Part shown: positions 6,626 through 27,686 of the stretch, in pieces
Position numbering within the stretch: the stretch's first letter is position 1
How the letters are laid out: every line of letters starts with the position of its first letter
Assembly: GCA_001783715.1 (NCBI GenBank)
Contig: MFNF01000018.1
Coordinates: 1-37,277 of the forward strand
Length of the DNA: 37,277 nucleotides
Direction: 5' to 3'
Source: Candidatus Lambdaproteobacteria bacterium RIFOXYD2_FULL_56_26
Lineage (GTDB): Bacteria > SAR324 > XYD2-FULL-50-16
Notes under the pieces: model-generated
What the model saw: the letters and a program-made list of their open reading frames with translations, nothing else
Database searches by the model: none
What the model was told of the DNA's origin: nothing
Translations under genes and position numbers: made by a program

Positions 6626-8788
<2,163 letters not shown>

Positions 8789-10126: not shown

Positions 10127-12541
10127 ATGAAGTTATTCTCACGGATTTTCCTCACCGGAATCCTGGCCCTGTGGTTGGGTTGGGGACCGAGTTGTCGGGC
10201 CGCAACGGTCTTGTTGGCAGAGAACACCGACCTGGTGGACCTGGGCTGGTCCGCCGAGGTTTGGCCGGACCCGACCGGCCAAGCGACTCTGTCACAGGCC
10301 CAGTCTGAAACCACTCCCTACCGACCCTTGCACCAAAGGTACGTCAACCGGATAGAAGAAGGGGTTTATTGGTACCGGGTTCGGATCCATCGGCAGCCCG
10401 ACGACCTCCGCAGCTGGGTCCTCAAGGTGGGCCTGCTGACCATGCCGACCCAAGTCTATCTGGTCCCCCTGGGCCCTACAGGGGAACCGCAAGCCCCCCA
10501 GGAAGTCCCCCTTTGGCGGCCCGAGCCGAAATACCGGCACTACCAGTTCCAGCTGGACTCGGCCCCGGATTGGTGGCTCTACGTCCGCACCCAGTCGCTC
10601 CACTGGGACATCAACTGGCTGAGGCTTACCACCGGTACAAAACACCTGCAAATCCACTCTTCCGAGCTGGTGTTCCAGTCTTTTTATTATGGTTCCATCC
10701 TGGTGATGGCGGCGTTTAATCTGCTTTTGTTCTTTTCCACCAAAGACCGGATTTATTTGTATTATGTAGCCTCCCTGTTCAGCTACATGGGATTCCAGGC
10801 CTTGGCGATCGATTACCTGCCCTTGGGTTGGGGGGAGTTGGGGGTGGAACGGCTCAATATTTATACCCCTTACGCCTACATTTCGGCAGTACCGGTCTCC
10901 CTGTTTTTTACCCGGCTGACCCAAAAGATGTTGGACTCCAAGGCTCTGATGCCTCGGGTGCACCGGTGGATGAACGGGTTGTTGGTTTATGCGGTCTTGC
11001 TGTTGTTGATTTTTCCCTGGGCCAATGTACAGGTGTTGTTTTTGACTGTCAGCCCGCTGGGCTTTTTGCTGCCGATCTTGAGCCTTTGGGCCGGGGTGAC
11101 CGCATGGCGGCGGGGCCACAGGAGCGCCAAGTTTTATCTGGTCGCCTTCATTTTTTACCAGTTTGGCCTGACCTTGTTCACCTTGGGCTTTTTGGACTTC
11201 CATCCCTTTGGGTTGGACTTTTACCAAGTGTCGGTGAACCTCAAGGTGGCTTCGATGCTGGAGATCGTCCTCTTGGCCTTTGCCTTGGGGGACCGGTACA
11301 ACGGCATCAAGGCCGAAACCATTGCCTCCCAAAAACAGGTGATCGAGCTGGGACACAAGTATGCGCTGGACCTGGAAGCGGAAGTGGCGGAGCGGACTCA
11401 TGATCTGGCCCTGGCCAACCAAACCAAGGACAAGTTCTTTTCGATCATCGCCCACGACCTGCGGGGGCCGGTCGGCAGCCTGTCGGTGATCTTTAACGAG
11501 GTGCTGGGGTCCGGCCAGGACTTGGATACCGAGCTGTTTGAAACGGTCCGAACCAGCATCCGCAACACCCACCAACTGCTTGAAGACCTGCTCAGTTGGG
11601 CCAAAAGCCAGCAACAGGAGATTGAAATCCATCCTCAGGACATTTTGGTGGGGCAGGTAGTGACCCCCTGCCTGGAACTGTTCACCGGCCCGGCCTCGCT
11701 CAAGGGAATTCGGCTGGTCCAGGACGACCCCCTGGACGCAGTGGTTTTTGCCGACCCTTCCCTGATCACCACTGTGGTCCGCAACCTGATCAACAATGCG
11801 ATCAAGTTCACCTTTGAAGACGGAACCATCCACCTGGGGTACCGGGTCCTGGGGGACCGGGTGGAGGTTTATGTGGCCGACAATGGGGTGGGGATGAATG
11901 CGGAGGTGGCCGCAAAGTTGTTTAAGGTGGGGGAAAAGGCCCAGAGTACCCCCGGGACCCGCAGCGAATCCGGCTCGGGGTTGGGGTTGATCCTTTGTGC
12001 CGAGTTCCTGGCCAAAAGCGGCGGGCAAATCGGCGTGGAATCCTCCCCCGGCCAGGGAAGCCGGTTTTGGTTTACCCTGCCCAAAGGCCAAGCCCAACCC
12101 GCCGGTCCCGACCTGGAATCTCCGGCTTGGTTGGCCAAAGTGGCGGGGCTCAAGGTTCTGGTGGTGGAAGACAACCCGCTGCACCAAGAGAGTACCGGCA
12201 AGGTGCTCAAGGACTTGAACGTCCAATTTGAAGTGGCGGACAACGGCCAAACGGCGGTTTGGCGGGCCGTCGCCGCTCCCTTTGATCTGATCCTGATGGA
12301 CATAGACCTGCCCCAGCTCAACGGGCTGGAAGCGACGTGGCAGATCAGAAACCAAGCCAAACCGGCACCTTGGATTCTGGCGCTTTCCTCCTACTCCAAA
12401 ACGGAATTGGCCCGTCTCACCGCCGCAGAACTTTTTGAGGGTTCGCTCAACAAACCTTTGTCCAAAACCCAATTTTTGTCCCTTTTGGTCCCCCTCTTGG
12501 AGCAGCGGGCGGCAAAGGAGGGAGCGGCGGAGAGGGTTTAA
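10127..12541 (+). CDS. 7TMR-DISM hybrid histidine kinase, copy 1
   Basis: An 804-residue inner-membrane hybrid sensor kinase. A signal peptide ends near residue 25 (CRAATVLL). Residues ~40-170 form a periplasmic DISMED2-like beta domain with QRYVNRIEEGVYWYRVRIHR. Seven membrane helices span ~183-390. A coiled coil (~395-430) leads to the phosphoacceptor H443 in FFSIIAHDLRGPVGSLSV. The ATPase has NLINNAIKF (N box), VADNGVGM (G1) and SGSGLGLILCAEF (G2). A C-terminal receiver (~675-795) carries VVEDN, the phosphorylatable D725 in LILMDIDLPQLNGLEA, a serine in ALSSYSK and K in LNKPLSK, so all catalytic residues are present. DISMED2 domains are thought to bind carbohydrates or other ligands. There is no adjacent HPt or output protein. 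It is a tandem paralogue of the next gene. Confidence 0.93.
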   Translation: MKLFSRIFLTGILALWLGWGPSCRAATVLLAENTDLVDLGWSAEVWPDPTGQATLSQAQSETTPYRPLHQRYVNRIEEGVYWYRVRIHRQPDDLRSWVLKVGLLTMPTQVYLVPLGPTGEPQAPQEVPLWRPEPKYRHYQFQLDSAPDWWLYVRTQSLHWDINWLRLTTGTKHLQIHSSELVFQSFYYGSILVMAAFNLLLFFSTKDRIYLYYVASLFSYMGFQALAIDYLPLGWGELGVERLNIYTPYAYISAVPVSLFFTRLTQKMLDSKALMPRVHRWMNGLLVYAVLLLLIFPWANVQVLFLTVSPLGFLLPILSLWAGVTAWRRGHRSAKFYLVAFIFYQFGLTLFTLGFLDFHPFGLDFYQVSVNLKVASMLEIVLLAFALGDRYNGIKAETIASQKQVIELGHKYALDLEAEVAERTHDLALANQTKDKFFSIIAHDLRGPVGSLSVIFNEVLGSGQDLDTELFETVRTSIRNTHQLLEDLLSWAKSQQQEIEIHPQDILVGQVVTPCLELFTGPASLKGIRLVQDDPLDAVVFADPSLITTVVRNLINNAIKFTFEDGTIHLGYRVLGDRVEVYVADNGVGMNAEVAAKLFKVGEKAQSTPGTRSESGSGLGLILCAEFLAKSGGQIGVESSPGQGSRFWFTLPKGQAQPAGPDLESPAWLAKVAGLKVLVVEDNPLHQESTGKVLKDLNVQFEVADNGQTAVWRAVAAPFDLILMDIDLPQLNGLEATWQIRNQAKPAPWILALSSYSKTELARLTAAELFEGSLNKPLSKTQFLSLLVPLLEQRAAKEGAAERV

Positions 12542-12709
12542 GGTTTTTATTTTCGGGGCCAGAACAGTGGGAACCCGGCCAGCCCCATGACCGGGACTCA
12601 TGCGTGGATTCCCGGAGGCACCAAGTTTTTATAGTTCTTGCCGATTGGGTGGGGACTGGCTAATCTATGCAAAGATTCAAATATCACCTGACAACTCTCC
12701 TTACCCAGC

Positions 12710-15088
12710 ATGTTTCTTCGATGGAAGTCCAAGGCCAGCCTTGGACTGTTGGCCTTCTTGTGTTTGGTCCAGGGAGGTTTTGCGGCAACGGTGGAACTGG
12801 GGCCGGCGGTCCAAGAAGTGGCGCTGGGGCCTATGGCCGAAGTTTGGGTGGACGATTCTGGACAGGCAACTTTGGAGCAGGTCCGGGAGGGCCGGGCCGA
12901 CTTTAGGCCGCTCGGGCAAAGGTACGTCAACCGCCAGGATGCTCGGGTTTATTGGTACCGGGTCCGGTTGCACAAAGACCCGGCGGACCTGCGGGACTGG
13001 ATGGTCAAAACCAGTCTGGCCACCAACCCCACCCGGGTTTGGTTGGTTCCGTTGGGCACAAAATCCGAGGCCCCCATTGCCGCACCGCTTTGGCGGTTTG
13101 AATCCCAGTTTTCCCATTTTCTGTTGCGGTTGGACCAAGCCACCGATTGGGAGCTGTACCTACGCACCGAGACGGTGGTTTGGAATCTCAACTGGCTGCA
13201 ACTCTCCTCCCAGCAAAGACAACAAGAGCTGACCATCCGGCAGGCGGTGATCCAGGCGCTTTATTACGGCTCCATGCTGGTGATGTTGGGGTACAATCTG
13301 TTGTTGTTCCTTTCCATCCGGGATCGGCTGTACCTTTATTACGTCTTGGCGCTGGCCACCGCCTTGGTCTTCCACAGCATGGCGGTGGACCTGCTGGCGG
13401 CCTATTGGCTGTCCCCTGAGGCAGGGTACAGCCCGACCTTGTACTCTCGGTTGGGCTTTGCCGCTTCCTTTCCGGCGGTGATTGCTTTTTTGTTGTTCAC
13501 CCAACAAATGTTGGAAACCAAGCGGTTGATGCCCTGGGTCCACCGGTTGATGAATGGCTTGGTCGCCTACTCGGCTTTGGGGCTGCTGGCGTTTCCCTGG
13601 GAAAGCCTGGAATTCCTGAAGCTGGCGGTGAGTGTGCCCGGCTTTTTTATGCCCCTTTTGAGTCTGATTGCCGGGCTGCTGGCCTGGAGGGCCGGGCAAC
13701 CTTCGGCCAAGTATTTTTTGGTCGCCTTTTTGCTCCAACAATCGGCGGTCAGCCTTTTTGCCCTGGGCTTTTGGGGCTATGAGCCCTTGGGGATGGACCT
13801 GTACCAAAACGTAGTGAATACCAAAATCGCTTCGGTTCTGGAGATACTCCTCTTGGCCTTTGCCCTGGGGGACCGGTACAACGGGATCAAGGGAGAGGTG
13901 ATCCGCTCCCAACGGGAGATCATCACCCTAGGGGAGCGGCACGCCCAGGAGCTGGAATTTAAGGTCGAGGAACGGACTCGGGAATTGTCCTTGGCCAACC
14001 AAACCAAGGACAGGTTTTTTTCCATCATCGCCCATGACTTGCGGGGGCCGATCGGCAGCCTGTCGGTGTTTTTTAACGAGATGTTGAAACAGCCCTCGGA
14101 CCTGGACCAGGGCATGTTCAAGGTAGTCAGAAGCACCACCCGTAACACCCACCAACTGCTCGAAGACCTGCTCGGTTGGGCCAGAAGCCAGCGGCAGGAA
14201 ATTGCGCTGGACACCGAACATTTTCCGGTCCGCAAAGTGGTGGAGGTTTGTTTTGAGCTGTTGGCCGGTGCGGCGGCCCAAAAGAACATTCCCCTGGTCG
14301 CCGGTCCGGGGCTGGACCTATACGTGGCTGCGGACCCCTCGATGGTCACCACGGTGGTCCGCAATCTGGTCGGCAACGCCGTCAAGTTTAGCCCCGAAAG
14401 TGGGCAGGTCACCTTGTCGGCCCGGAAAACCGACGACGGTCAAGTGGAAGTCGGCGTGACCGACCACGGCATTGGGGTACCGCCGGGGATATTGGACAAA
14501 CTGTTCAAGGCCGGAGAAAAGATTCATTCCCAACCCGGCACCAATCGGGAGACCGGTTCCGGGTTGGGGTTGGTCTTGTGCGCCGAGTTTGTGGCGAAAA
14601 ATGGAGGGCAAATCGGGGTGCAATCCCAGGTCGGCCAGGGCAGTCGCTTTTGGTTTACCTTACCCCAGGGAACCCCTTCGGAAGTGGTGCCGGACTTGGA
14701 AGACCCCGATTTTTTGGCGCAGGTGGGCGGCCTCAAGGTCCTGGTGGCCGAAGACAACGGGCTGCACCAAGAGACCACCGCCAAGGTGCTGCAAGACCTG
14801 GGGATGGAGTTTCAATTGGCCCAAAACGGGTTGGAGGCGGTGGCAATGGCTGGAGCCGTTCGGTTTAACTTGGTGTTGATGGACATTGACCTGCCGGGGC
14901 TCAACGGCCTGGAGGCGACTAGGCGGATCCGCCAACACCAAAGCCCCGCTCCCTGGGTCTTGGCGCTCTCCGCCTACTCCAAGCCGGAGTTGGACGAACG
15001 GGCCGAAGCGGTCGAGTTTGAGGGCTACATCAACAAGCCGCTGTCAAGGACGGAGCTTTTGGTATTGCTGCGCCCTCTCTTGGCTTAA
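12710..15088 (+). CDS. 7TMR-DISM hybrid histidine kinase, copy 2
   Basis: A 792-residue paralogue of the upstream kinase with the same domain order: signal peptide to about residue 25 (GGFAATVEL), DISMED2-like domain with QRYVNRQDARVYWYRVRLHK, seven membrane helices (~180-390), coiled coil, then HisKA with H442 in FFSIIAHDLRGPIGSLSV. The ATPase shows NLVGNAVKF, VTDHGIGV and GSGLGLVLCAEF. The receiver has VAEDN, D in LVLMDIDLPGLNGLEA, ALSAYSK and INKPLSR. Most divergence from copy 1 is in the periplasmic domain and the loops between helices, suggesting a changed ligand with a kept phosphorelay. It starts 168 bp after copy 1, with no clear promoter or terminator between them. It is convergent with the MCP gene, 18 bp away. 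Confidence 0.93.
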   Translation: MFLRWKSKASLGLLAFLCLVQGGFAATVELGPAVQEVALGPMAEVWVDDSGQATLEQVREGRADFRPLGQRYVNRQDARVYWYRVRLHKDPADLRDWMVKTSLATNPTRVWLVPLGTKSEAPIAAPLWRFESQFSHFLLRLDQATDWELYLRTETVVWNLNWLQLSSQQRQQELTIRQAVIQALYYGSMLVMLGYNLLLFLSIRDRLYLYYVLALATALVFHSMAVDLLAAYWLSPEAGYSPTLYSRLGFAASFPAVIAFLLFTQQMLETKRLMPWVHRLMNGLVAYSALGLLAFPWESLEFLKLAVSVPGFFMPLLSLIAGLLAWRAGQPSAKYFLVAFLLQQSAVSLFALGFWGYEPLGMDLYQNVVNTKIASVLEILLLAFALGDRYNGIKGEVIRSQREIITLGERHAQELEFKVEERTRELSLANQTKDRFFSIIAHDLRGPIGSLSVFFNEMLKQPSDLDQGMFKVVRSTTRNTHQLLEDLLGWARSQRQEIALDTEHFPVRKVVEVCFELLAGAAAQKNIPLVAGPGLDLYVAADPSMVTTVVRNLVGNAVKFSPESGQVTLSARKTDDGQVEVGVTDHGIGVPPGILDKLFKAGEKIHSQPGTNRETGSGLGLVLCAEFVAKNGGQIGVQSQVGQGSRFWFTLPQGTPSEVVPDLEDPDFLAQVGGLKVLVAEDNGLHQETTAKVLQDLGMEFQLAQNGLEAVAMAGAVRFNLVLMDIDLPGLNGLEATRRIRQHQSPAPWVLALSAYSKPELDERAEAVEFEGYINKPLSRTELLVLLRPLLA

Positions 15089-15106: not shown

Positions 15107-17161
15107 TTAGAATTCCGCAAAGTCGTCTCGCAACGGGATTGACTCGCTGGGTTTGATTTTTCTGCGTACCGATGCGGCGGTAGGCTGGGCCGGTTCACGG
15201 GTCAGGTCTTCGGAACGCAACTCCAGCCGGTTGCCCTTGGGCCGAATGGCCGGTGGGGCCTTGGGAGCCGGGGCCTGTTGCCTCTGTGGCTGGGAATGGC
15301 CTTGGGCCTGCAATTTCGCCCCTACTTCCTGGGCTAGGTCGGAGACCAGATCATGCATCATTTTTGCCTGGGCGCTCAACTGTTCGGCTGCCGAAGCGGT
15401 TTCTTCGGCGTTGGCGGCGTTGGACTGGGTGACTTGGTCCATCTGGATCACCGCTTGGCTGACCTGATGGATGCCGTTGGCCTGTTCGATGGAAGCGGTG
15501 GCAATCAGCTGGACCGCCTGGGTGGCTTTTTCGATCTTCTCGGCCTGGACCTGAGCGCTTTGGCTCAGGCTCTCCAGTTCCTCTCCCACCTGGGTGGATC
15601 GGTCCAAGATTTCCTTTAAGACCCGTTCTCCTTGTTTGACCTGGGCAATCCCGACTTCCGCCCGTTTGGCCGATTCTTTGATCAGGTTGGCTACGTCCTT
15701 GGCTGCGGCCTTGGAGGATTCAGCCAGCTTGGACACCTCGTTGGCTACCACCGAGAAGCCCTTGCCCGACTCTCCCGCACGGGCCGCTTCAATGGCGGCG
15801 TTGGTCGCCAACATTTTGGTTTGGTGGGTGATCTCGTTGATTACTTCCATGATGTCGGTGATCCGGCGGCTGGAATCGGCGATTTGGTCCATCGCCTGGT
15901 TGATAGCGGTCATCGCCTGGGCCCCTTGGCCTGCCGCTTTTTTGGCTTGGTCGGCCAACTTGGAGGCGGACTTGGCTCCTTGGGTGGACTGGACCATCAT
16001 CTCCTTGACCTGCTGCATTTGGGCGGCCGTTTCCTTGGCCGCCTCGGAATTTTGTTCGGTCTGGCTGTTCATCTCTTCCATGGAGGCCGAAGTTTGCTCC
16101 AGGCTTGCCGCCTGTTCGGTCGCTCCTTCGGAGAGCTGCTGGCTCCCTCGGGCGATCTCTTCGGACGCAGCCGCCACCTGAGAAGCGGAGCTGTCCAGGT
16201 CGGCGGAAAGCTTGAGCAGCAGGTTGGTCAGGTTGCGGACGAACCAAAGGACAAACACCAGGGAACCGACCAACCCCGTCAGAGCCGCTGTCCACAAGAG
16301 AGTTTTGGAAAGGTTGATCTGGCTGTTGATCGAACCGCTGATCTCTTGGGTTTCCTTGGCTTCAGCTTCGGCCAATTGGCTGGCCAGTCCGGTGATGGTC
16401 AAGGTGGCGGACTCTACGTTGTCCATCTGCTCGCTTAACATCAACTGGGCTTGGGCGAGGCTGTCAAAGCTCTCCCGGTATGCCGAAAGTTCCCTCAGCA
16501 ACTTTGCCTTGTCCCCCACGGAGAGCCTGGAATTCTGGATCTTTTGGCCCAAAATCTGGGCGGCCTCCTGGTGGCCCAAAAGGTACTTTTCCCCATGTCG
16601 GAGCAGAAAGTCCTTTTCGGTGCGCCGCAGTTCCAGGTAGGCGATTTGGATCGTCTCCAGCTCCTGCCTTTTGACCTCCACCTCCAGCTGGTGGATGGAG
16701 GTACGCATCGCTCCCATGAGCCCCAATTCTTCGTTGAGGCCAATTTTTTCCGACAACTGCTGGGTCTTTTTGGCCTCTTCTTGGATGTTCCCGGCCAAGA
16801 GCAGGACCAAGTCGTAGCTCTTGAGGGTTTCCTCGTCGAAGGTCAACTTCTGGATGTCCTTGGCTTCATCCATGGCTTTGCCGATCTGCTCCAAGGCAGA
16901 TTGGACCAAGGCGGCATCGGGAGCCCGGAAGTATTTGTACAAGGCCAGTTCCGCCTCAATGGCGTAAGAGCGAATCTTGAAGACCCGGTGTTCGTGTTGC
17001 ACCTGGGTCAGCAAGTCTCCCCGCAGGGTTTTGTCGATCGAGCCGAATTGGTAGATGCTGTAGCCCGAGAGTATGGCCAGCACTACCAGAGTAAAGCCAA
17101 ACCCGCCGGACAGCTTTTGTCCGATGGTCAGCTTTCTCCAAGAGGATGTATTAAGGTTCAT
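15107..17161 (-). CDS. Methyl-accepting chemotaxis protein with HBM-like sensor and no HAMP
   Basis: A 684-residue transmembrane chemoreceptor. TM1 is at ~20-38 and TM2 near 287-308 ([20 protein letters not shown]). The ~250-residue periplasmic part is all-helical. It contains [19 protein letters not shown], like the helical bimodular (HBM) sensor, which binds small organic acids in known cases. The cytoplasmic tip has [20 protein letters not shown] and then [16 protein letters not shown], the CheA/CheW-contact hairpin. No HAMP linker is visible: TM2 runs directly into the signalling coiled coil ([20 protein letters not shown]). The tail is a Pro/Gln-rich linker ending RDDFAEF, with no NWETF-type CheR tether. 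The upstream region shows no clear sigma-28 site. It is convergent with the hybrid kinases. Confidence 0.93.
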
Positions 17162-18481: not shown

Positions 18482-18581
18482 CGGTGAAACCGTATCTTGG
18501 TTGGATCGAAGGCTTGGCTTGTCTTTGTGGTCCCAAGTTGTTACACCTGTTGTGAACCCACATTCCCCTGCAGGGCTAAGG

Positions 18582-19268
18582 ATGGAACGATTTAAGGGGC
18601 TTGACCCGGACCAGGTCGGGCAGTTTTACCAACAGATTACCGACCACGTGCTTTCCGAAGGCGGTGTGGCGGAGCTGAGCTATGCTCCCCAAGAACACCT
18701 GCTCCGGGCGAAGCTATCACACCCCGCTTCCAAAGGGAACAGCGTCGATGACATTGGCCGGATCTTTTGCTTGGCCGCCAAAGAGGTGCTGATCGCCGCC
18801 ACGGGCCAAGAGGTCCAGTATGCCAAAACCATCCAGCAGGTCCCCTCGATCCACCTCAAGCCCGATGTCGGCAGCTTCGTAGAGTTTTCCGGGGACTACA
18901 CCGGCCTTTTGATCACCAACTTTTCGGCCCGTGCTGCCATGGAGGTTTACCGGGGGCAGATGTTGCACATGGGGATGGGGGCAGAGGACTTGGCCCTGGA
19001 GCACACCTCCGACGAGGTGGTGGACACCATTGGGGAGCTGATCAACCAAGTGATCGGCAAGGCCAGGCTGCTGATCGAACAAAAGTATGGCCTTTCCGCC
19101 TACAACAGCCAACCCAAGGCGATTGCCCTGACCGAATCGGTGACCCTTTCGATCGCCACCTTCAAGGACACCCAGTACCAGCTGCGCCGGTTGAGTTTCA
19201 AGATCAACGGTGCTCCGTTCCAGATTGAATTACAGATGGAAAACGTCCAATTCCAACCTGCCCCGTAA
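18582..19268 (+). CDS. DUF3334 / CheX-like protein
   Basis: A 228-residue protein. The segment from ATGQEVQYAKTIQQV through LKPDVGSFVEFSGDYTGLLI, the MLHMGMGAEDLALEHTSDEV block and ELINQVIGKARLLIEQKYGL matches what I know of DUF3334 proteins, a group distantly related to the CheX/CheC chemotaxis phosphatase fold. The acidic DEV...GELINQ segment corresponds to the helix carrying the E..N pair of CheX-type CheY phosphatases; both a Glu and an Asn are visible here. A role in dephosphorylating a CheY-like regulator is plausible but unproven. The ATG at 18582 is chosen because homology-like sequence begins soon after it; an upstream TTG at 18501 adds an unlikely extension. An MCP gene lies nearby. 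Confidence 0.8.
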   Translation: MERFKGLDPDQVGQFYQQITDHVLSEGGVAELSYAPQEHLLRAKLSHPASKGNSVDDIGRIFCLAAKEVLIAATGQEVQYAKTIQQVPSIHLKPDVGSFVEFSGDYTGLLITNFSARAAMEVYRGQMLHMGMGAEDLALEHTSDEVVDTIGELINQVIGKARLLIEQKYGLSAYNSQPKAIALTESVTLSIATFKDTQYQLRRLSFKINGAPFQIELQMENVQFQPAP

Positions 19269-19960: not shown

Positions 19961-20001
19961 AAAAAGCCCCGGCGGAACCACTCCACCGGGGCTTTTTTTT
20001 T
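19961..20001. terminator. bidirectional terminator
   Basis: AAAAGCCCCGG (19962-19972) pairs perfectly with CCGGGGCTTTT (19986-19996), with a 13-nt loop. T-runs follow on both strands: TTTTTTTTT on plus, and TTTTTGTTTTT on minus. It lies between the convergent slyD-like gene and the TPR gene and should stop both. Confidence 0.93.
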
Positions 20002-20037: not shown

Positions 20038-22920
20038 CTATTTCCCGTTCGCATCGGGGGTGCGGTTGAGGTATTGGTCAAAGTTGAGGTCATTGATCAT
20101 CGCTTTACGGGCCTCGATGGCCAAGGGACCCCAGAGTGCGTCCGGCTGGTCTTTGGCTCGCTTTTCCAGGTCCTCAAAGATCTTCAGCGCCTTGTCCTTC
20201 TGGTTGTACCGGATATAGATCTGCCCCTTCTGGTACTGGGCCCAGGGGGTTTTGGCCGAGCTGGGGAAGTATTTGATCGCTTGGTCAAACATGTCCATCG
20301 CTTCGGGCATCTGGTTGAGTTCGTAGTAGAGGTTGCCCAGGATAAAGTTGGTGTCCAAGATATAGGTGGCCACGTCCTTGTCCTGCAAGGGATGCTCATA
20401 GGTGGAAAGAGCGGTCTTGTAGGATTTGATGGCGTTGTCGTACTGGCCGATCCCCTGGTAAACGTTGCCCAAGGCAAACCAGCAGGCCGGGATGATCTCC
20501 CGTTCCAAGGGGTCTTCCGACTCCTGGTAGTCCCGGATGGTTTGGTTGTATATCCGTATCGCCCGGTCCACCCGGTCAAACTTGTGGACCTTGTAATAGG
20601 CATCGCCCAGCGCCTTTTTCACCTCGGGGGTGTAGGTGTGGTTTGGGTATTTGACGATAAAGTCCCCATAGGTTTTTTGTGCTTCATCGGCCATCCCTTT
20701 GGCTTCCAAAATCTGGCCTTTGGAGTACATCACCAGACTGGCCAAGGGATCGTTGGGGTCTTTGAGGATCAGGTCCATGATCTGAAGGCCTTTTTCCTGC
20801 AACCCCAGGCGGTAGTAGGAGTCGGCAATCAAAAACAGCGGTGCCCGCTCCAAGATCGGCTCCACCCGGATCTTGAATTCGTCGTTTTTCCCGAAACAAG
20901 CGCTTTCGGTAGGCCTCAGGTAATACTTACGTTCGTATTGCTCAAAAACCCCCAGTGCGTCCAGGTACCTTGCCCTTTGGTAGTAGTCGGTCACATAGTC
21001 GGTGATGGTGTCCAGGATCCGGTCATGGATGATCCGGTTCTTGACGTACAGGTTCTCGGGGAACTTGGCGCAAAACTCCTCCAACTTGACCACTGCTTCG
21101 GGGTACTTATGGAAGAGCGCCAAGGTCAGGCCACGGCGCAACATCGCCTCTTCCACCTGGTCGCTCAAGGGGTGTTTGGTAATGATAAAGTTGTAGGCCT
21201 CCAAAGCCTCCTGGAAAGGCTTGGGCTCCGGCATTTCGGCTTTGAGGTTGGCAATACGCATCTTGCCAATCAGCAACAACTCTTTGCTGTATTTGACGAT
21301 CGCCTTCTCGTAGGCCCTGATTGCGTCTTCGGGTTTGTCCTCGGCCCGCAGGAAGTCACCGATCCTGATGGCCACCAGATTGGAAAAGGTCTCGTTGGGG
21401 AACAGGTCAATCAACTGTTCGTAGATCGCCCGAGCGGTATGGTAGTCCTGGTTCTCGAAGTAGGCCTCGCCCATGTGGAACATCAGTTCCGCATCCTGCT
21501 TCATGTAGGCTCCGTTGAGGCTCCAGGCCCGGTCGAAGTTCTTTTTGGCATCCTTGTAGTGTTTGAGCTGGAATTCCGCTTCCCCGATCTTGTAGTAGGC
21601 GACCGGAACCTGCGGAGCGGTGGCGTTTTCCCGGATAAACTTGTTGAGGGTCTCGATCGCCTTGTCGTACCGGAACATCCCCAGGTGGATCAGACCTTGG
21701 TTGAACAAACTGTCGGCGGAAAAGGCGGAGTCCGAATAATACTGGAGGATGATCTCAAACTGGGTGTAGGCATCGGAGTAAAGTTTTTTGGTCATATAGA
21801 CCCGGCCCATGTTGTAATAGGCCCTGGGGATGTCTTCGTAGCCCTTTTCCGCCACCAAGGCAGCGTTGACCGCCGCCCGGTATTCCTGGACCACAAATTC
21901 GTGGTCCATCTTGTCCCCTTTGGTGGCCTCCAACTGGTAGTAGGAATCGGCACTCCGAAAGGCGGCCCGGACCCCGACTTCGGTTTGGGGGGCAAAGTTG
22001 TACAGGTTCTTAAAATCCAAACCGGCGGTTTGGAACTTGCCCAACCGAAACTCCCGTTCCGCTTCATCCAGCTTCTTGTTGATGAAGTCTTCCTTGGCCT
22101 TGTCCAGGCCGGTGCGGCCGTCCACCTCCACCTGTTCTTGGGTACTCAAAATCGGCTGTTCGGTGATCTTTTTTTCCTTGTCCTCGGTCAATTCCAAGAT
22201 CACCCGGTCCGGCCGGGTTAGGGTCTTTTTGGCGATTTTGAGCACATAGGTCTTGGGATTGATCACCATCAACAGGTACTTGCCCCGGTTTTCCACCTGG
22301 ATTCCCGCCAACATCTCGGTCGGAGCACCGGGGATGATCAACCCGTCGGTCACCCGAGCCCCGATGACCCGAATCTTGACCTTACTGCCCGGCGTGGTGT
22401 TGTCCCTGATGATGTCGTACTGGGCCGGTTTGTCGAAGGTCAGGATCAAGGTTTCCTTGTCCTTGGCCAACTCTCGCAGCATGTCCACCAGCTCGGCCCC
22501 TTCGTAGGCCTCTTTGGCCTTGACCGGCTTGTCGAACTGGATCTTGATCAGGTGGGAGCCTTTGGGCTGGGGCAGCAGTTTGTAGGTCAGGTCGTCGTAC
22601 TTGGTACGGACCTTGGCCCAATATTCGTCCTGGTCCACTTTTTCAAGTTGCACCCCGGCGATCAGGGGGTTGCGGAAGACCAAAAGATCCCCGATCTCTC
22701 CCAACTTGATGTTGCGGAATTTGATGATAAAGACCTTGGACTTGAGGTTTTCGACCAACTCAAAGTCCGGTGGGTCGAAGGTCTCGAAGGTCAAGACGGT
22801 GCGGTAGTCCCCTTCCTGGGTGGGGGTGATCCGGTCCAAATAGTTGACCTGAGCCCAAGCCCAACGGGGGATTAGCGCAAAAACAAAAAAGAAAAAGAGG
22901 TACGTTACAAGTCTGGACAT
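20038..22920 (-). CDS. Large periplasmic TPR-repeat protein with AMIN-like N-terminus
   Basis: A 960-residue exported protein. The signal peptide MSRLVTYLFFFFVFALIPRW ends near AWAQ. Residues ~30-270 are beta-rich, with alternating segments such as DPPDFELVENLKSKVFIIKF and YDIIRDNTTPGSKVKIRVIG. This is like AMIN-type domains that bind peptidoglycan or envelope partners. From ~300 to ~950 come about fourteen tetratricopeptide-like repeats; clear ones include AYYNMGRVYMTKKLYSDAYT and AYYKIGEAEFQLKHYKDAKK. I start at 22920 because AAGGGCAGG precedes that ATG and the signal peptide begins there; an ATG seven codons upstream lacks a ribosome site. It follows the bactofilin gene by 56 bp and ends at the bidirectional terminator. 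It is probably a scaffold for envelope assembly, division or motility. Confidence 0.82.
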   Translation of the reverse strand: MSRLVTYLFFFFVFALIPRWAWAQVNYLDRITPTQEGDYRTVLTFETFDPPDFELVENLKSKVFIIKFRNIKLGEIGDLLVFRNPLIAGVQLEKVDQDEYWAKVRTKYDDLTYKLLPQPKGSHLIKIQFDKPVKAKEAYEGAELVDMLRELAKDKETLILTFDKPAQYDIIRDNTTPGSKVKIRVIGARVTDGLIIPGAPTEMLAGIQVENRGKYLLMVINPKTYVLKIAKKTLTRPDRVILELTEDKEKKITEQPILSTQEQVEVDGRTGLDKAKEDFINKKLDEAEREFRLGKFQTAGLDFKNLYNFAPQTEVGVRAAFRSADSYYQLEATKGDKMDHEFVVQEYRAAVNAALVAEKGYEDIPRAYYNMGRVYMTKKLYSDAYTQFEIILQYYSDSAFSADSLFNQGLIHLGMFRYDKAIETLNKFIRENATAPQVPVAYYKIGEAEFQLKHYKDAKKNFDRAWSLNGAYMKQDAELMFHMGEAYFENQDYHTARAIYEQLIDLFPNETFSNLVAIRIGDFLRAEDKPEDAIRAYEKAIVKYSKELLLIGKMRIANLKAEMPEPKPFQEALEAYNFIITKHPLSDQVEEAMLRRGLTLALFHKYPEAVVKLEEFCAKFPENLYVKNRIIHDRILDTITDYVTDYYQRARYLDALGVFEQYERKYYLRPTESACFGKNDEFKIRVEPILERAPLFLIADSYYRLGLQEKGLQIMDLILKDPNDPLASLVMYSKGQILEAKGMADEAQKTYGDFIVKYPNHTYTPEVKKALGDAYYKVHKFDRVDRAIRIYNQTIRDYQESEDPLEREIIPACWFALGNVYQGIGQYDNAIKSYKTALSTYEHPLQDKDVATYILDTNFILGNLYYELNQMPEAMDMFDQAIKYFPSSAKTPWAQYQKGQIYIRYNQKDKALKIFEDLEKRAKDQPDALWGPLAIEARKAMINDLNFDQYLNRTPDANGK

Positions 22921-22976
22921 CCTGCCCTTTGATCGGTGCATGGGGCTAGGAAAGCAAAAGTCTTGCCCAAACGGCT

Positions 22977-23444
22977 TTATTGGCCAGGGGCAAGCTCGTA
23001 GATTGATTTCTGCTGGTGAATCGCATAAAAGCCTTCAAGCTTGAAGGCTTGTTTGTCTTCAAAGCTCCAACCTCGGATCATGATACATTCCCCTTGGAAC
23101 AAAGCGCCGTCTTCGATCGAAAAATCGCTGGAATAAACCAACCCTTCGATCCGCCCCGGAGCAAGCAGTTCCAGCCGCTCGACCGCCTTGATGTTGCCGC
23201 ACAGGCTGCCCGAGACGATCACTTCGTCGGCGACAATGTTAGCCTCTACCCTGGCATCGGCGGTGATGATCACCTTCGAGGGCTTGCCGCCCCGACAGAG
23301 GATCTCACCCAAAACCACACCATCGATCCGCAAGGTCCCTTCAAACCGAATCCGGCCCTCAAAATGGCTGCCTGCACCCAAGAGCCCGGAAATGGGGGTC
23401 TCTTTGGTTGGTTGGGGCAGCAGGTTTTTGGGTTTGAGGATCAC
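22977..23444 (-). CDS. Bactofilin (polymer-forming cytoskeletal protein)
   Basis: A 155-residue bactofilin. The central domain is a right-handed beta-helix built from short repeats: SHFEGRIRFEGTLRIDGVVL, then GEILCRGGKPSKVIITADAR, VEANIVADEVIVSGSLCGNI and ERLELLAPGRIEGLVYSSDF. Such proteins polymerise without nucleotides and anchor envelope enzymes at set places, for example stalks, curved walls and chromosome scaffolds. The N-terminus has the usual short disordered tail. The start is GTG at 23444, with GGAG nine bases upstream overlapping the end of the preceding gene. Unlike many bactofilin loci there is no M23 peptidase neighbour; the preceding gene is a membrane coiled-coil protein instead, and the following gene is a TPR protein. 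Confidence 0.92.
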   Translation of the reverse strand: MILKPKNLLPQPTKETPISGLLGAGSHFEGRIRFEGTLRIDGVVLGEILCRGGKPSKVIITADARVEANIVADEVIVSGSLCGNIKAVERLELLAPGRIEGLVYSSDFSIEDGALFQGECIMIRGWSFEDKQAFKLEGFYAIHQQKSIYELAPGQ

Positions 23445-23451
23445 AGGCTGG

Positions 23452-24225
23452 TTACTCCAAGAAGATGGCCTTGCTGAGGCTATGGGAGGTACGGGTCAAC
23501 AGGGTGCCTTTGTAGGAATAAACGAACACCATGGCATCCGTATAGTACTCGTCTGCTTCTTTGAGCGCAAGGCTCATGAGGATCTCACGTTTGGCCCCAC
23601 GGTTTTGGATAAAATACTGTTTCCCCTGCTTAAAGGCAATGGGGAAGCCGTTGTCCCCCAAGGCCCCGCCGGTGACCGATTTGAAACTGGTCGGTTTGGC
23701 ATCCGAATTGATCAGGCTGATGCAGACATAGCCGCCGATCGGTTGGTCCGGGTTGCTCCGGTTGACCAGGGAGACGTTGAGGTGGAGCTGGTCGCCCCGC
23801 ACTTCGGCGTTCAGGTCGGTCACTTCCAGGGCGATCCCTTCTTGCAGCTCTTCTACGCTGAGGCTACCCTTGGCTTCGTCCCACAGGTTCCCGGTGTCCA
23901 AGGTTTTCTGCTCCAGCAGACTGTCCTTGTAGAGTCCCCTGCCGGTGCTTTGTTGGCCCAAGGAAAAATACTTTTGGTCCATCAAGGCCACCTGTTTGGA
24001 CAGCTCGGTCAGCTTGTCCTTGGCTGCGGCCAATTCGTTGCGGACCTTGTGGTTTTGGGTGCGGATGACCAGATAATCCAAGGCGGCAAACAGCAGAAAC
24101 CCCGCCACCACCGCCGCCAAAAAGGCAAACAGGGCCACCTTGCGCTTTTCGATGGTAAAAGAAAGCGGTACTCCGAAGTTGCGCACCACCGTAATGGTGT
24201 AGATCTCTTTTTTGTCCCGATCCAT
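23452..24225 (-). CDS. Single-pass membrane coiled-coil protein next to bactofilin
   Basis: A 257-residue protein. A ~28-residue cytoplasmic tail (MDRDKKEIYTITVVRNFGVP) precedes one membrane helix (KVALFAFLAAVVAGFLLFAA). A periplasmic coiled coil (~55-90, NELAAAKDKLTELSKQVALM) and a beta-rich C-terminal domain (~115-250) containing LHLNVSLVNRSNPDQPIGGY and FVYSYKGTLLTRTSHSL follow. From memory this architecture resembles DUF6776-type proteins that sit next to bactofilin genes in some gammaproteobacteria; I could not check this. There is no LytM catalytic motif. It begins 1 bp after the pheT stop and is followed 7 bp later by bactofilin, so the three are probably translated together. It may tether bactofilin polymers to the inner membrane. 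That role is inference. Confidence 0.78.
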   Translation of the reverse strand: MDRDKKEIYTITVVRNFGVPLSFTIEKRKVALFAFLAAVVAGFLLFAALDYLVIRTQNHKVRNELAAAKDKLTELSKQVALMDQKYFSLGQQSTGRGLYKDSLLEQKTLDTGNLWDEAKGSLSVEELQEGIALEVTDLNAEVRGDQLHLNVSLVNRSNPDQPIGGYVCISLINSDAKPTSFKSVTGGALGDNGFPIAFKQGKQYFIQNRGAKREILMSLALKEADEYYTDAMVFVYSYKGTLLTRTSHSLSKAIFLE

Positions 24226-24226
24226 C

Positions 24227-26635
24227 TTACCTCAGTTGGTACCCTTTTTTGGCCAAGCTTTCGATCAGCTCGGTTTGTAGGTCTTTGGTTTCTTCCGGGG
24301 TCAAGGTCGAGTCCTTGGACCGGAAGGTGACAGTTACCGACAGGCTCTTTTTCTCCCCCAAGGATTCGGCGCAATACACATCCAGGAACCGGACCGACTC
24401 CACTTTGCCAGAAAAGGCCAGAATCTCTCTTTTGAGGGTCAGGTAAGGCAACCGCTGGTCCACCAGGAGCGAGAGGTCCAAAAAGACCGCCGGGAACTTG
24501 GAGGGTGCTTCGTACCGGTATTCTGCCAAAGGAGCGGTAAAAAGGGCATCAAAATCCAGTTCCGCAAAGACCACTTGGTCCTTCAGCTCAAACTGGCGCA
24601 TGGCCGCCGGGGTCAGGGCGAAGATCCGTCCCAAGGCCAAGAACTGCCCTTTTTTGCCTTCCAAGACGATCTCGGCGGCAATCCCCGGATGCATGTAGGG
24701 CTGGGGCGGACTGGAGAGAGGCAAAAATTGCAGCTCTTTGGCCTGGAGGTGGCTCAACAGGGCGATCAAGTCCGCCTTGAGGCGGTAAAAGGCGGCCCCC
24801 AGGTTCTTGGGCTCCAGGGGGGTGGATAAGGCGGTCACCAACCGGTAGGGCTCCACCGGTTCCGTCCCGGTCCCCATGCCATACACCCGGCTGATTTCAA
24901 AGAGCTTGAAGGCGGGGGAAAGCTTCTGGTTCTCATGGACCCGTTGGACCAGATGGGGCAGCAAGCTGGTGCGCATCCGGTCCTGGTGGTCCACCACCGG
25001 ATTGACCAGGACCAGCCGGGGGTCCTGGATCAGCCCAAAGGCGGCCTCGGTTTTTTGGTCGGTCAGGGGGTAGGAATAGATTTCATGGAACCCCAGGGCG
25101 GCCAAAGCTTTTTTGGTGCGGTTTTCCACCTGCCGGTGCCGGTTGAATTTTGGCTGGCTGACCGGGAACAGGGGGGCCTGGGGGGCAATCTTGGAAAGCC
25201 CATAGATCCGGCCCACTTCTTCGGCGATGTCTTCAGGGATGGAGATGTCCTTGGTCCGCCGGTGGCCGGGGACTTCGATCACGATTTGTTGGCCCTGTTC
25301 GGTGACTTCAAATTCCAACCGGTGCAAGATGCCCTTGATCTCTTCGGGACCGATGTCGGTGCCCAAGAGGCCGTTGATAAACTGGTAGCTGGTGTTCACC
25401 TGTACCGCCGGAATCTTGGCCCCCAACAGGTCACACAAACTGCCCTCCAACTTGAGGCCGGGGCAGGTGGCCCGCAACAGTTCCAAGGCTCGCCAAAGGG
25501 CCAGTTCGGTGGTGGCCGGATCCAGAGCTTTTTCAAACCTTTGGCTGGCATCGGTGCGCAGGCCGATTTTGGCGGCAGTTTTGCGGACCGAAACCGGGTT
25601 CCAGTTGGCGGCTTCCAAAAAGCAGCGAGTGGTGCCGGTGCCTTCGATCCCCGAATGCAAACCGCCGATCACCCCGGCCACGACACTAGGGCCGTCGCCG
25701 TCGGCGAGGGTCAGGTCGTCGGGGCTCAGTTCCACTTCCTTGCCGTACAAGGTCAGCACCTTCTCTCCCGGCTTGGCCCGGCGGATCACCAGCCGGTGGC
25801 CGGAGATTTTCTCCCCGTCGAAGGCGTGCATCGGTTGGCCCAGTTCCAACATCACATAGTTGGTCACATCCACCAGATTGTTGATCGGACGCAGCCCCAC
25901 CCGCCGCAGCCGGTAGCGCATTGCCGCCGGGCTCGGCTGGACATGAAGGCCCACGACCATTTGGCCCGAATAACGGGGGACCAGTTCCGGGACCTCGCAG
26001 GTCACGGCGATGGGGCAAGGCCCGGTGCCCAAGGTAGGCTTGAGGGCCGGGTAGGGTTTGAGCGGCTTTTGGTAGATCGCCCCCAATTCTCGGGCAAAAC
26101 CATAGTGGCCCCAAAGGTCGGGCCGGTGGGTGACTGATTTGTTGTCGATCTCCAAAACCCAGTCCACTTGGTCGGGGTACAGTTGGGCCAAAGGAGTGCC
26201 GGGCTGGGTCTCCTGGGGCAGGAGGAACAGCCCTTCATGGTCTTCGGAAAAACCCAGTTCGTCTTCGGCGCACAACATGCCCAGAGATTCGATCCCTCGG
26301 ATCTTCGCTTTTTTGATCACAAAACCCCCAGGCAGCTCCACCCCCAGTCCGGCGTAGGCCACCTTGTCCCCAACGGCAAAGTTGCTCGCTCCGCAGACCA
26401 CTTCAATGGGGCTTGGGGCACCGTAGTCCAGGGTGACCAACCGGAGCTTGTCGGCATCCGGGTGGGGTTTGAAAGTGAGGACCTGGGCGGCGACCACCGA
26501 CTTGAGGTGTTCGCCGATCACCTCGACCCCTTCCACCTCACAAACCGAAAGGGTCAGGGTGCGGGAAAACTCCGCCGGGGTTAGGGTGACGGGCAGTTCC
26601 ACAAACTCTTGCAGCCAATTTCTGGAAATCTTCAT
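24227..26635 (-). CDS. pheT: Phenylalanine-tRNA ligase beta subunit
   Basis: The 802-residue beta chain of the alpha2-beta2 enzyme that charges tRNA-Phe. In order: N-terminal B1 segment (MKISRNWLQEFVELPVTLTP); EMAP-like tRNA-binding domain (~40-150, VLTFKPHPDADKLRLVTLD and GIESLGMLCAEDELGFS); B3/B4 editing domain (~210-385, with NLVDVTNYVMLELGQPMHAF); B5 (~405-475); the catalytic-like core; and the C-terminal FDX-ACB anticodon domain (~708-802, SKFPAVFLDLSLLVDQRLPY). Length is normal (~790-800). It starts 4 bp after the pheS stop. The membrane coiled-coil gene follows after 1 bp, so pheT is in one transcript with the bactofilin group. Confidence 0.97.
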   Translation of the reverse strand: MKISRNWLQEFVELPVTLTPAEFSRTLTLSVCEVEGVEVIGEHLKSVVAAQVLTFKPHPDADKLRLVTLDYGAPSPIEVVCGASNFAVGDKVAYAGLGVELPGGFVIKKAKIRGIESLGMLCAEDELGFSEDHEGLFLLPQETQPGTPLAQLYPDQVDWVLEIDNKSVTHRPDLWGHYGFARELGAIYQKPLKPYPALKPTLGTGPCPIAVTCEVPELVPRYSGQMVVGLHVQPSPAAMRYRLRRVGLRPINNLVDVTNYVMLELGQPMHAFDGEKISGHRLVIRRAKPGEKVLTLYGKEVELSPDDLTLADGDGPSVVAGVIGGLHSGIEGTGTTRCFLEAANWNPVSVRKTAAKIGLRTDASQRFEKALDPATTELALWRALELLRATCPGLKLEGSLCDLLGAKIPAVQVNTSYQFINGLLGTDIGPEEIKGILHRLEFEVTEQGQQIVIEVPGHRRTKDISIPEDIAEEVGRIYGLSKIAPQAPLFPVSQPKFNRHRQVENRTKKALAALGFHEIYSYPLTDQKTEAAFGLIQDPRLVLVNPVVDHQDRMRTSLLPHLVQRVHENQKLSPAFKLFEISRVYGMGTGTEPVEPYRLVTALSTPLEPKNLGAAFYRLKADLIALLSHLQAKELQFLPLSSPPQPYMHPGIAAEIVLEGKKGQFLALGRIFALTPAAMRQFELKDQVVFAELDFDALFTAPLAEYRYEAPSKFPAVFLDLSLLVDQRLPYLTLKREILAFSGKVESVRFLDVYCAESLGEKKSLSVTVTFRSKDSTLTPEETKDLQTELIESLAKKGYQLR

Positions 26636-26639
26636 GGTT

Positions 26640-27686
26640 TTAGTACACTTGGTATTGGCTGGCCGTGGAAAAACGGCGGTTGAAGCTCAGGTCCCCATTG
26701 TGCAGGTGCCGGATGTCGTTGATTTGGTAGCGCTGCATGGCTAGACGGTCGGTGCCCATGCCAAAGGCGAAGCCGGAATAAACGGTTGGGTCGATGCCGC
26801 CCGCCTTGAGGACATTGGGGTGGACCATACCACAACCCAAAAGCTCCACCCAGCCCAATTTCTTGCAGGCCGCACAGCCCTTGCCGCCGCACAGCAGGCA
26901 GGCAATCTCCAGCTCGTAGCCCGGCTCGACAAAAGGGAAGTACCCAGGCCGCAACCGGACCTCCACTTCCTTTTCAAACATCTCCGAAAGCATCACCTTC
27001 ATGGTGTGGATCAGGTGGCCCACGTTGATGCCCTTGTCGATCATCATCCCTTCGATTTGGTGGAAACAGGCCTCGTGGCTGGCATCAAGCCGTTCGCACC
27101 GGAAGACCTTGCCGGTCCCGACCATCCGAATCGGCGGTTTGAGCCGTTCCATGCCCCTGATCTGGATCGGACTGGTTTGGGTCCTTAGCAGCCGCCCCCC
27201 TTGGGTGAAGAAGGTGTCGTGCATGTCCCGGGCCGGGTGGTGTGGGTCGAAGTTGAGGGCCTCGAAGTTGTAGTAGTCGGTCTCCACATGGGGGCCGTCG
27301 AGGATCAAAAAGCCCATGGCCTCAAAGATCTCTTCAAGCCTCTGGTGGACCAGGGTGATCGGGTGCAGGCTGCCTGCTTCCTGGCCCTGTGGGTTCAGGG
27401 TCACGTCAATCCAGCTGGAAGCCAAGGCGGCCTGTTCTTCCTGGGCTACCAGTCTGGCTTCGGCGTTGGCGATTTCTTGGGTCAGGGATTGTTTTAATTC
27501 GTTGATCCCCTTGCCGACCTGGGCCTTTTCTTCGCCGCTTAGGTCTTTGAGGCCCACCAGCAGGGCTTGGATCTCGCCTTTTTTGCCCAGAAACCTGACC
27601 TTGACCGCTTCCAGTTCCTTGGTATGGGTCGCTTGGGACAGGGCCTCCTGGAAGGCTGCGGCAATGGGGGCTAACTTGTCGGTCAT
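26640..27686 (-). CDS. pheS: Phenylalanine-tRNA ligase alpha subunit
   Basis: The 348-residue catalytic alpha chain. The N-terminal coiled coil (~1-100, with VRFLGKKGEIQALLVGLKDL) binds tRNA. Class II motifs follow: the HPITLVHQRLEEIFEAMGF region, motif 2 near TGKVFRCERLDASHEACFHQ, and motif 3 GFAFGMGTDRLAMQRYQIND. The phenylalanine pocket segment GHLIHTMKVMLSEMFEKEVE is also intact. A CLLCGGKGCAACKKLGW insert typical of bacterial PheS is present. The ATG at 27686 fits the family N-terminus (MTDKLAPIAAAF); the frame is open further upstream only through the end of gatA. No clear Shine-Dalgarno is seen, so coupling to gatA, 7 bp upstream, is likely. Confidence 0.97.
   Translation of the reverse strand: MTDKLAPIAAAFQEALSQATHTKELEAVKVRFLGKKGEIQALLVGLKDLSGEEKAQVGKGINELKQSLTQEIANAEARLVAQEEQAALASSWIDVTLNPQGQEAGSLHPITLVHQRLEEIFEAMGFLILDGPHVETDYYNFEALNFDPHHPARDMHDTFFTQGGRLLRTQTSPIQIRGMERLKPPIRMVGTGKVFRCERLDASHEACFHQIEGMMIDKGINVGHLIHTMKVMLSEMFEKEVEVRLRPGYFPFVEPGYELEIACLLCGGKGCAACKKLGWVELLGCGMVHPNVLKAGGIDPTVYSGFAFGMGTDRLAMQRYQINDIRHLHNGDLSFNRRFSTASQYQVY

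Follow-up and report, generated by a model that had tools for sequence, protein, structure and literature searches.

The best-known partners of bactofilins are M23 peptidases. In the window analysed here, a stretch of 37,277 nucleotides from Candidatus Lambdaproteobacteria bacterium RIFOXYD2_FULL_56_26, a bactofilin gene (BAC) lies between the gene for a single-pass membrane protein with no peptidase domain (TET) and that for a large secreted protein with AMIN-like and TPR regions (TPR), all three downstream of pheST. This raises the question of whether the three genes form a unit of their own and what a bactofilin may do in such company. An initial annotation had described them as an extension of the pheST operon and proposed a peptidase-free bactofilin scaffold.

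Organization of the locus

The genes and their terminator are as follows.

Ending at 26640, minus strand: pheS (ORF list)
24227–26635, minus strand: pheT, the upstream gene in the same apparent transcription unit; a family-specific neighbour, outside the module
23452–24225, minus strand: TET, single-pass membrane tether of 257 residues (ORF, alignment A1 of 19 orthologues, model)
22977–23444, minus strand: BAC, bactofilin of 155 residues with a GTG start (PF04519; in a clade of its own with the trio bactofilins)
20038–22941, minus strand: TPR, secreted AMIN-TPR protein of 960–967 residues (ORF, Pfam, start-site reading, model)
19961–19997, minus strand: operon terminator, a 17-pair stem and T tail (sequence-based terminator reading)

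The description of three minus-strand genes behind pheT with one strong terminator in common is borne out, coordinates and spacing included. By the ORFs of the window, 1 bp separates pheT from TET and 7 bp separate TET from BAC; the BAC-TPR gap is 35 bp with the first ATG of TPR (22941) and 56 bp with the second (22920). The second has the better ribosome-binding site, with AGGG just upstream, and yields the 960 residues originally given for this protein, which is matched by many TPR families of Pfam. No convincing internal promoter was found in the operon, where two promoter-like sites occur against 2.6 expected. Elsewhere in the window, a DUF3334/CheX-like protein is encoded near the operon (18501–19268), and two tandem sensor-kinase-like genes of ~800 residues each occupy 10127–15088, the second converging with a chemoreceptor gene (15107–17161).

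Conservation of the gene trio

The search for each gene covered 58 relatives, host included, from the family of the host (f1), families f2 and f3, and the distant family f4 of the same class. The order TET-BAC-TPR is kept in all 10 genomes of f1 and in 9 of the 10 of f4; among the 58 relatives, every TET gene has BAC and TPR behind it. The search for co-occurrence that had been suggested as a check on the trio thus returned the three-gene neighbourhood in 19 genomes of two families. TET was not found in f2 or in the 31 f3 genomes, except for two weak partial matches in f3; the TPR gene is separated in f2 and stands alone in f3. The TPR proteins of f1 and f4 share ~27% identity, and in the TPR tree f4 branches with f3, not with f1. 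On the simplest history, the trio would date back to the origin of the class and have been broken up later in f3 and f2.

The flanks of the trio differ between the two families. All f1 genomes have pheT upstream of TET, which together with the 1 bp gap agrees with an extension of the pheST operon. In f4, however, other genes stand in place of pheST, and TPR is followed by genes for a histidine kinase and a sigma-54 (NtrC-type) regulator. Since f4 carries the trio without pheST, the trio, and not pheST, is the unit, and the operon extension holds for f1 only. The linkage of the TET-BAC pair to the AMIN-TPR gene is real and old. Spacing within the trio is uneven in the genomes measured: TET-BAC gaps range from -20 to +40 bp in all except one (94 bp), and BAC-TPR gaps are wider, from 56 to several hundred bp.

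The kinase behind the f4 trio is a PAS histidine kinase (loci L037, L039, L041, L043 and L044). When the kinase/regulator pair was tested for flagellar identity, the top family scores were those of AtoS/AtoC, below the cut-off. Relatives of the regulator with 59–73% identity occur in 11 of 11 genomes searched; in f1 they lie near clpS/clpA, the closest adjoining these genes.

The bactofilin and its membrane tether

The identity of BAC as a bactofilin is confirmed by a match to PF04519, the central beta-helix domain of bactofilins, with an E-value of 1.1e-24 (86.9 bits, the cut-off being 27.9). The trio members of f1 and f4 form one group in the bactofilin tree (91/88), among which a stray f2 bactofilin falls on a long branch, and the M23-linked and parAB-linked bactofilins form separate clades. 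Genomes of f1 and f4 carry a second bactofilin gene immediately downstream of parA-parB or parB (L074, about 7594–7990; L080, 4973–5368; L084, 5791–6141), an arrangement reminiscent of Myxococcus BacNOP.

The predicted parts of TET are the following.

24148–24204, minus strand: cytoplasmic beta-hairpin, residues 8–26, in an LmdC-like layout (alignment and model)
23947–24147, minus strand: long helix, residues 27–93, with membrane span and coiled coil (model)
23479–23829, minus strand: periplasmic fibronectin/Ig-like beta-sandwich, residues 133–249 (model, Foldseek)

The TET model (pLDDT 82.4) has strands at residues 8–13 and 21–26, a helix at 27–93 and a beta-sandwich at 133–249. The hairpin is less confidently modelled than the remainder, its blocks being of low to moderate confidence (55–79); T10, N16 and G18 in this N-terminal part are invariant among the 19 orthologues of alignment A1. 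Foldseek relates the sandwich to fibronectin/Ig-like domains (GH3 enzymes, FlaF, ApaG). TET has no significant family match in Pfam, M23 included, and M23 domains are absent from the listed Foldseek matches. The earlier picture of a tether with a coiled coil and a beta domain but no LytM motif therefore agrees with the model. Two other assignments were considered: a degenerate LytM domain was rejected in view of the missing family match and the different fold, and the profile of DUF6776 (PF20567) gave no match at the TET locus and none above the cut-off.

The predicted layout is that of LmdC, the bactofilin partner in the LmdC-BacA pair known from Hyphomonas and Rhodospirillum (PMC10945521): a gene beside a bactofilin gene, a cytoplasmic hairpin, a single membrane helix and a periplasmic coiled coil. 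In Rhodospirillum LmdC, the hairpin is the bactofilin-binding element, and biolayer interferometry of LmdC with BacA yielded about 15 uM (PMC10945521). TET differs in having a fibronectin-like domain where LmdC has its C-terminal M23 peptidase, and the trio adds a third gene, that of the AMIN-TPR protein. Similar hairpin-helix tails are found on M23 proteins of the class that have no bactofilin neighbour, so the tail is no specific mark of bactofilin binding. Bactofilins that work with non-enzymatic membrane proteins are exemplified by Helicobacter CcmA with Csd5 and Csd7 (PMC9507126); that system acts with the hydrolase Csd1 (PMC9507126), and TET is compared with it by analogy.

Family f3 encodes an LmdC-like M23 protein of 417 residues (PF01551), which is complete or almost complete in 29 of the 31 genomes and has a bactofilin gene beside it in 19. 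This protein was not found in f1 or f4, where M23-domain matches occur only elsewhere in the genome. TET and the LmdC-like protein are thus mutually exclusive, the former in f1 and f4, the latter in f3; the exclusion follows the tree and therefore counts as at most a few events. A swap of the two at one locus was rejected, as their partner bactofilins belong to different lineages. No bactofilin was detected in genus g10 of f3, the loci of which (L109–L114) retain the LmdC-like protein. The complementary distribution, together with the non-M23 beta domain, strengthens the idea of a peptidase-free module. There is good support for a bactofilin-tether pair that is conserved and lacks a peptidase.

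The AMIN-TPR protein and its likeness to PflA

Two regions make up most of the third protein.

22168–22845, minus strand: two AMIN-like beta-sandwiches, residues 33–137 and 149–258 in first-ATG numbering (model; PF11741)
20071–22110, minus strand: TPR superhelix, residues 278–957 (Pfam, model, fold match)

In the model (pLDDT 85.8), a helix like that of a signal peptide precedes two beta-sandwiches, with a TPR superhelix behind them; the signal peptide is a reading of the N-terminal hydrophobic helix. The AMIN-like label given earlier is upheld by PF11741, which matches 14 of 26 orthologue N-termini individually (best 1.2e-4); the N-terminus encoded in the window itself gave no match to this family, and the AMIN region gave none to solved structures among PDB sequences. 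The protein occurs in 49 of 52 class genomes, and its gene is single-copy in nine genomes checked except one, in which two contigs carry the same locus. In g10 it is present without TET or a detectable bactofilin. Being class-wide even where no bactofilin was found, the protein has a role of its own, and g10 indicates that it does not need the other two. The proposed three-protein set thus stands as a conserved adjacency with a secreted AMIN-TPR protein, but not as an obligate partnership.

The best PDB fold match of the model is chain K of 9hmf, a Campylobacter flagellar scaffold (E 1.9e-17), a likeness that the initial annotation does not mention. Its lead over unrelated TPR superhelices (5e-15) is modest, and the TM-scores stay at or below about 0.3. 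To judge from its length, chain K is probably PflA (773 residues fit the mature protein). PflA has an AMIN-like sandwich and 16–17 TPRs, is poorly conserved in sequence and is widespread (PMC12222027, PMC11870540). Like PflA of Campylobacter and Helicobacter, the TPR protein is predicted to have a signal peptide, an N-terminal AMIN-like beta-sandwich and a TPR superhelix; it is single-copy, and the genome encodes a FlgY-like protein. It differs in having two beta-sandwiches where PflA has one, and in the distance of its gene from flagellar genes. PflA is usually sought by a gene position within or close to a flagellar cluster (PMC11870540), and in the loci read neither the TPR gene nor the trio was ever seen in such a cluster. 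Solved PflA is also absent among the 60 listed matches of the whole TPR profile. A true PflA would take the position of a spoke in the motor and bind PflB and FlgY.

Gene content points to a flagellated host with FlgY/MotE: FlhA is found in 51 of 52 class genomes, and a gene for a FlgY-like (MgtE_N-type) E-ring protein adjoins fliJ/fliK in the genomes read (at L131, 8757–9365). FlhA was taken as the flagella marker in place of FliG, which was dropped because the loci read show it as a lone gene at a distance from flagellar genes (L121, 12138–13148; L122, 7189–8202; L123, 7249–8262; L125, 9300–10013). Such FliG-like genes are sometimes two per genome, and more FliG_C matches lie in frames of about 600–660 residues. 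The flagellar clusters examined, those of the fliJ/fliK genomes read, hold no match to the TPR profile, which leaves the AMIN-TPR protein as the best PflA candidate found. TPR superhelices in general look alike, and the match to 9hmf leads those of unrelated ones by little.

Discussion

The reading we prefer, and to which we give about an even chance, is that the trio encodes a non-enzymatic trans-envelope scaffold in which a bactofilin-tether pair serves a PflA-like spoke, most likely with the flagellar motor as client. BAC would polymerise beneath the inner membrane, and TET would dock on the filament through its cytoplasmic hairpin in the fashion of LmdC, cross the membrane once and hold its fibronectin-like domain in the periplasm by means of the coiled coil. 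The TET array may then position or anchor the AMIN-TPR protein, the AMIN domains of which could touch peptidoglycan and the superhelix of which could form the arm of a client machine; that machine would most likely be the motor, with the superhelix as a PflA-type spoke. A joint complex of the three proteins is likely; the flagellar client is plausible, at clearly less than an even chance. In favour of the scaffold are the persistence of the trio in spite of its different flanks and of only ~27% identity between the f1 and f4 TPR proteins, the tight TET-BAC gaps, the common group of the trio bactofilins, the hairpin and long helix of the TET model, the LmdC-like M23 protein in f3 in the absence of TET, the fold match to 9hmf, and the flagellar genes of the class with no TPR-profile match in the clusters examined. 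Against it count the g10 genomes, the loose BAC-TPR gaps, the non-specific hairpin-helix tail, the small lead of 9hmf, the identification of chain K by length and the position of the trio outside flagellar clusters.

A stricter version, which we consider rather unlikely, would make the BAC filament and TET the inner-membrane scaffold of the flagellar motor that holds PflA-type spokes, in a role like that of the FcpM-FcpN-FcpO cage. FcpN and FcpO are single-pass membrane proteins of an inner-membrane scaffold, FcpO touches the AMIN domain of PflA, and FcpMNO are found only in Campylobacterota (PMC11870540). The likeness in single-pass proteins of an inner-membrane scaffold is an analogy only, as the cytoplasmic partner here is a bactofilin and the periplasmic domain of the tether is fibronectin-like.

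The strongest alternative, though still on the unlikely side, is a cell-shape scaffold of the BacA-LmdC or CcmA-Csd7 type that places wall synthesis without a hydrolase of its own, and that the TPR protein joins as an adaptor in contact with peptidoglycan, with no flagellar link. Where modules of a bactofilin and a membrane partner have been studied, they act on cell shape (PMC10945521, PMC9507126), AMIN domains are able to bind peptidoglycan (PMC11870540), and f3 employs an LmdC-like M23 protein beside a bactofilin; yet no cell-wall gene was recognised in the listed trio neighbourhoods, read mostly by eye, and the structure that best matches the TPR protein in fold is a flagellar scaffold. 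It is improbable that TET and BAC are a functional pair and the TPR protein an independent passenger on the same transcript: the tight TET-BAC and loose BAC-TPR gaps would fit, as would the solitary TPR gene of f3 and the separated one of f2, but adjacency persists in 19 genomes over a deep split with both outer flanks changed. A functional tie of the trio to pheST through translation-coupled expression, suggested by the 1 bp gap and the constant pheT of f1, is very improbable given the f4 trio without pheST.

In conclusion, this lineage pairs a bactofilin with a partner made of hairpin, helix, coiled coil and a non-catalytic domain, and so separates a scaffolding role from a hydrolase role. 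The link between bactofilins and motility has so far come from BacE/BacF of Bacillus subtilis (PMC4627819). The PflA-like candidate would offer a concrete connection, open to testing, between bactofilins and the scaffolds of flagellar motors.
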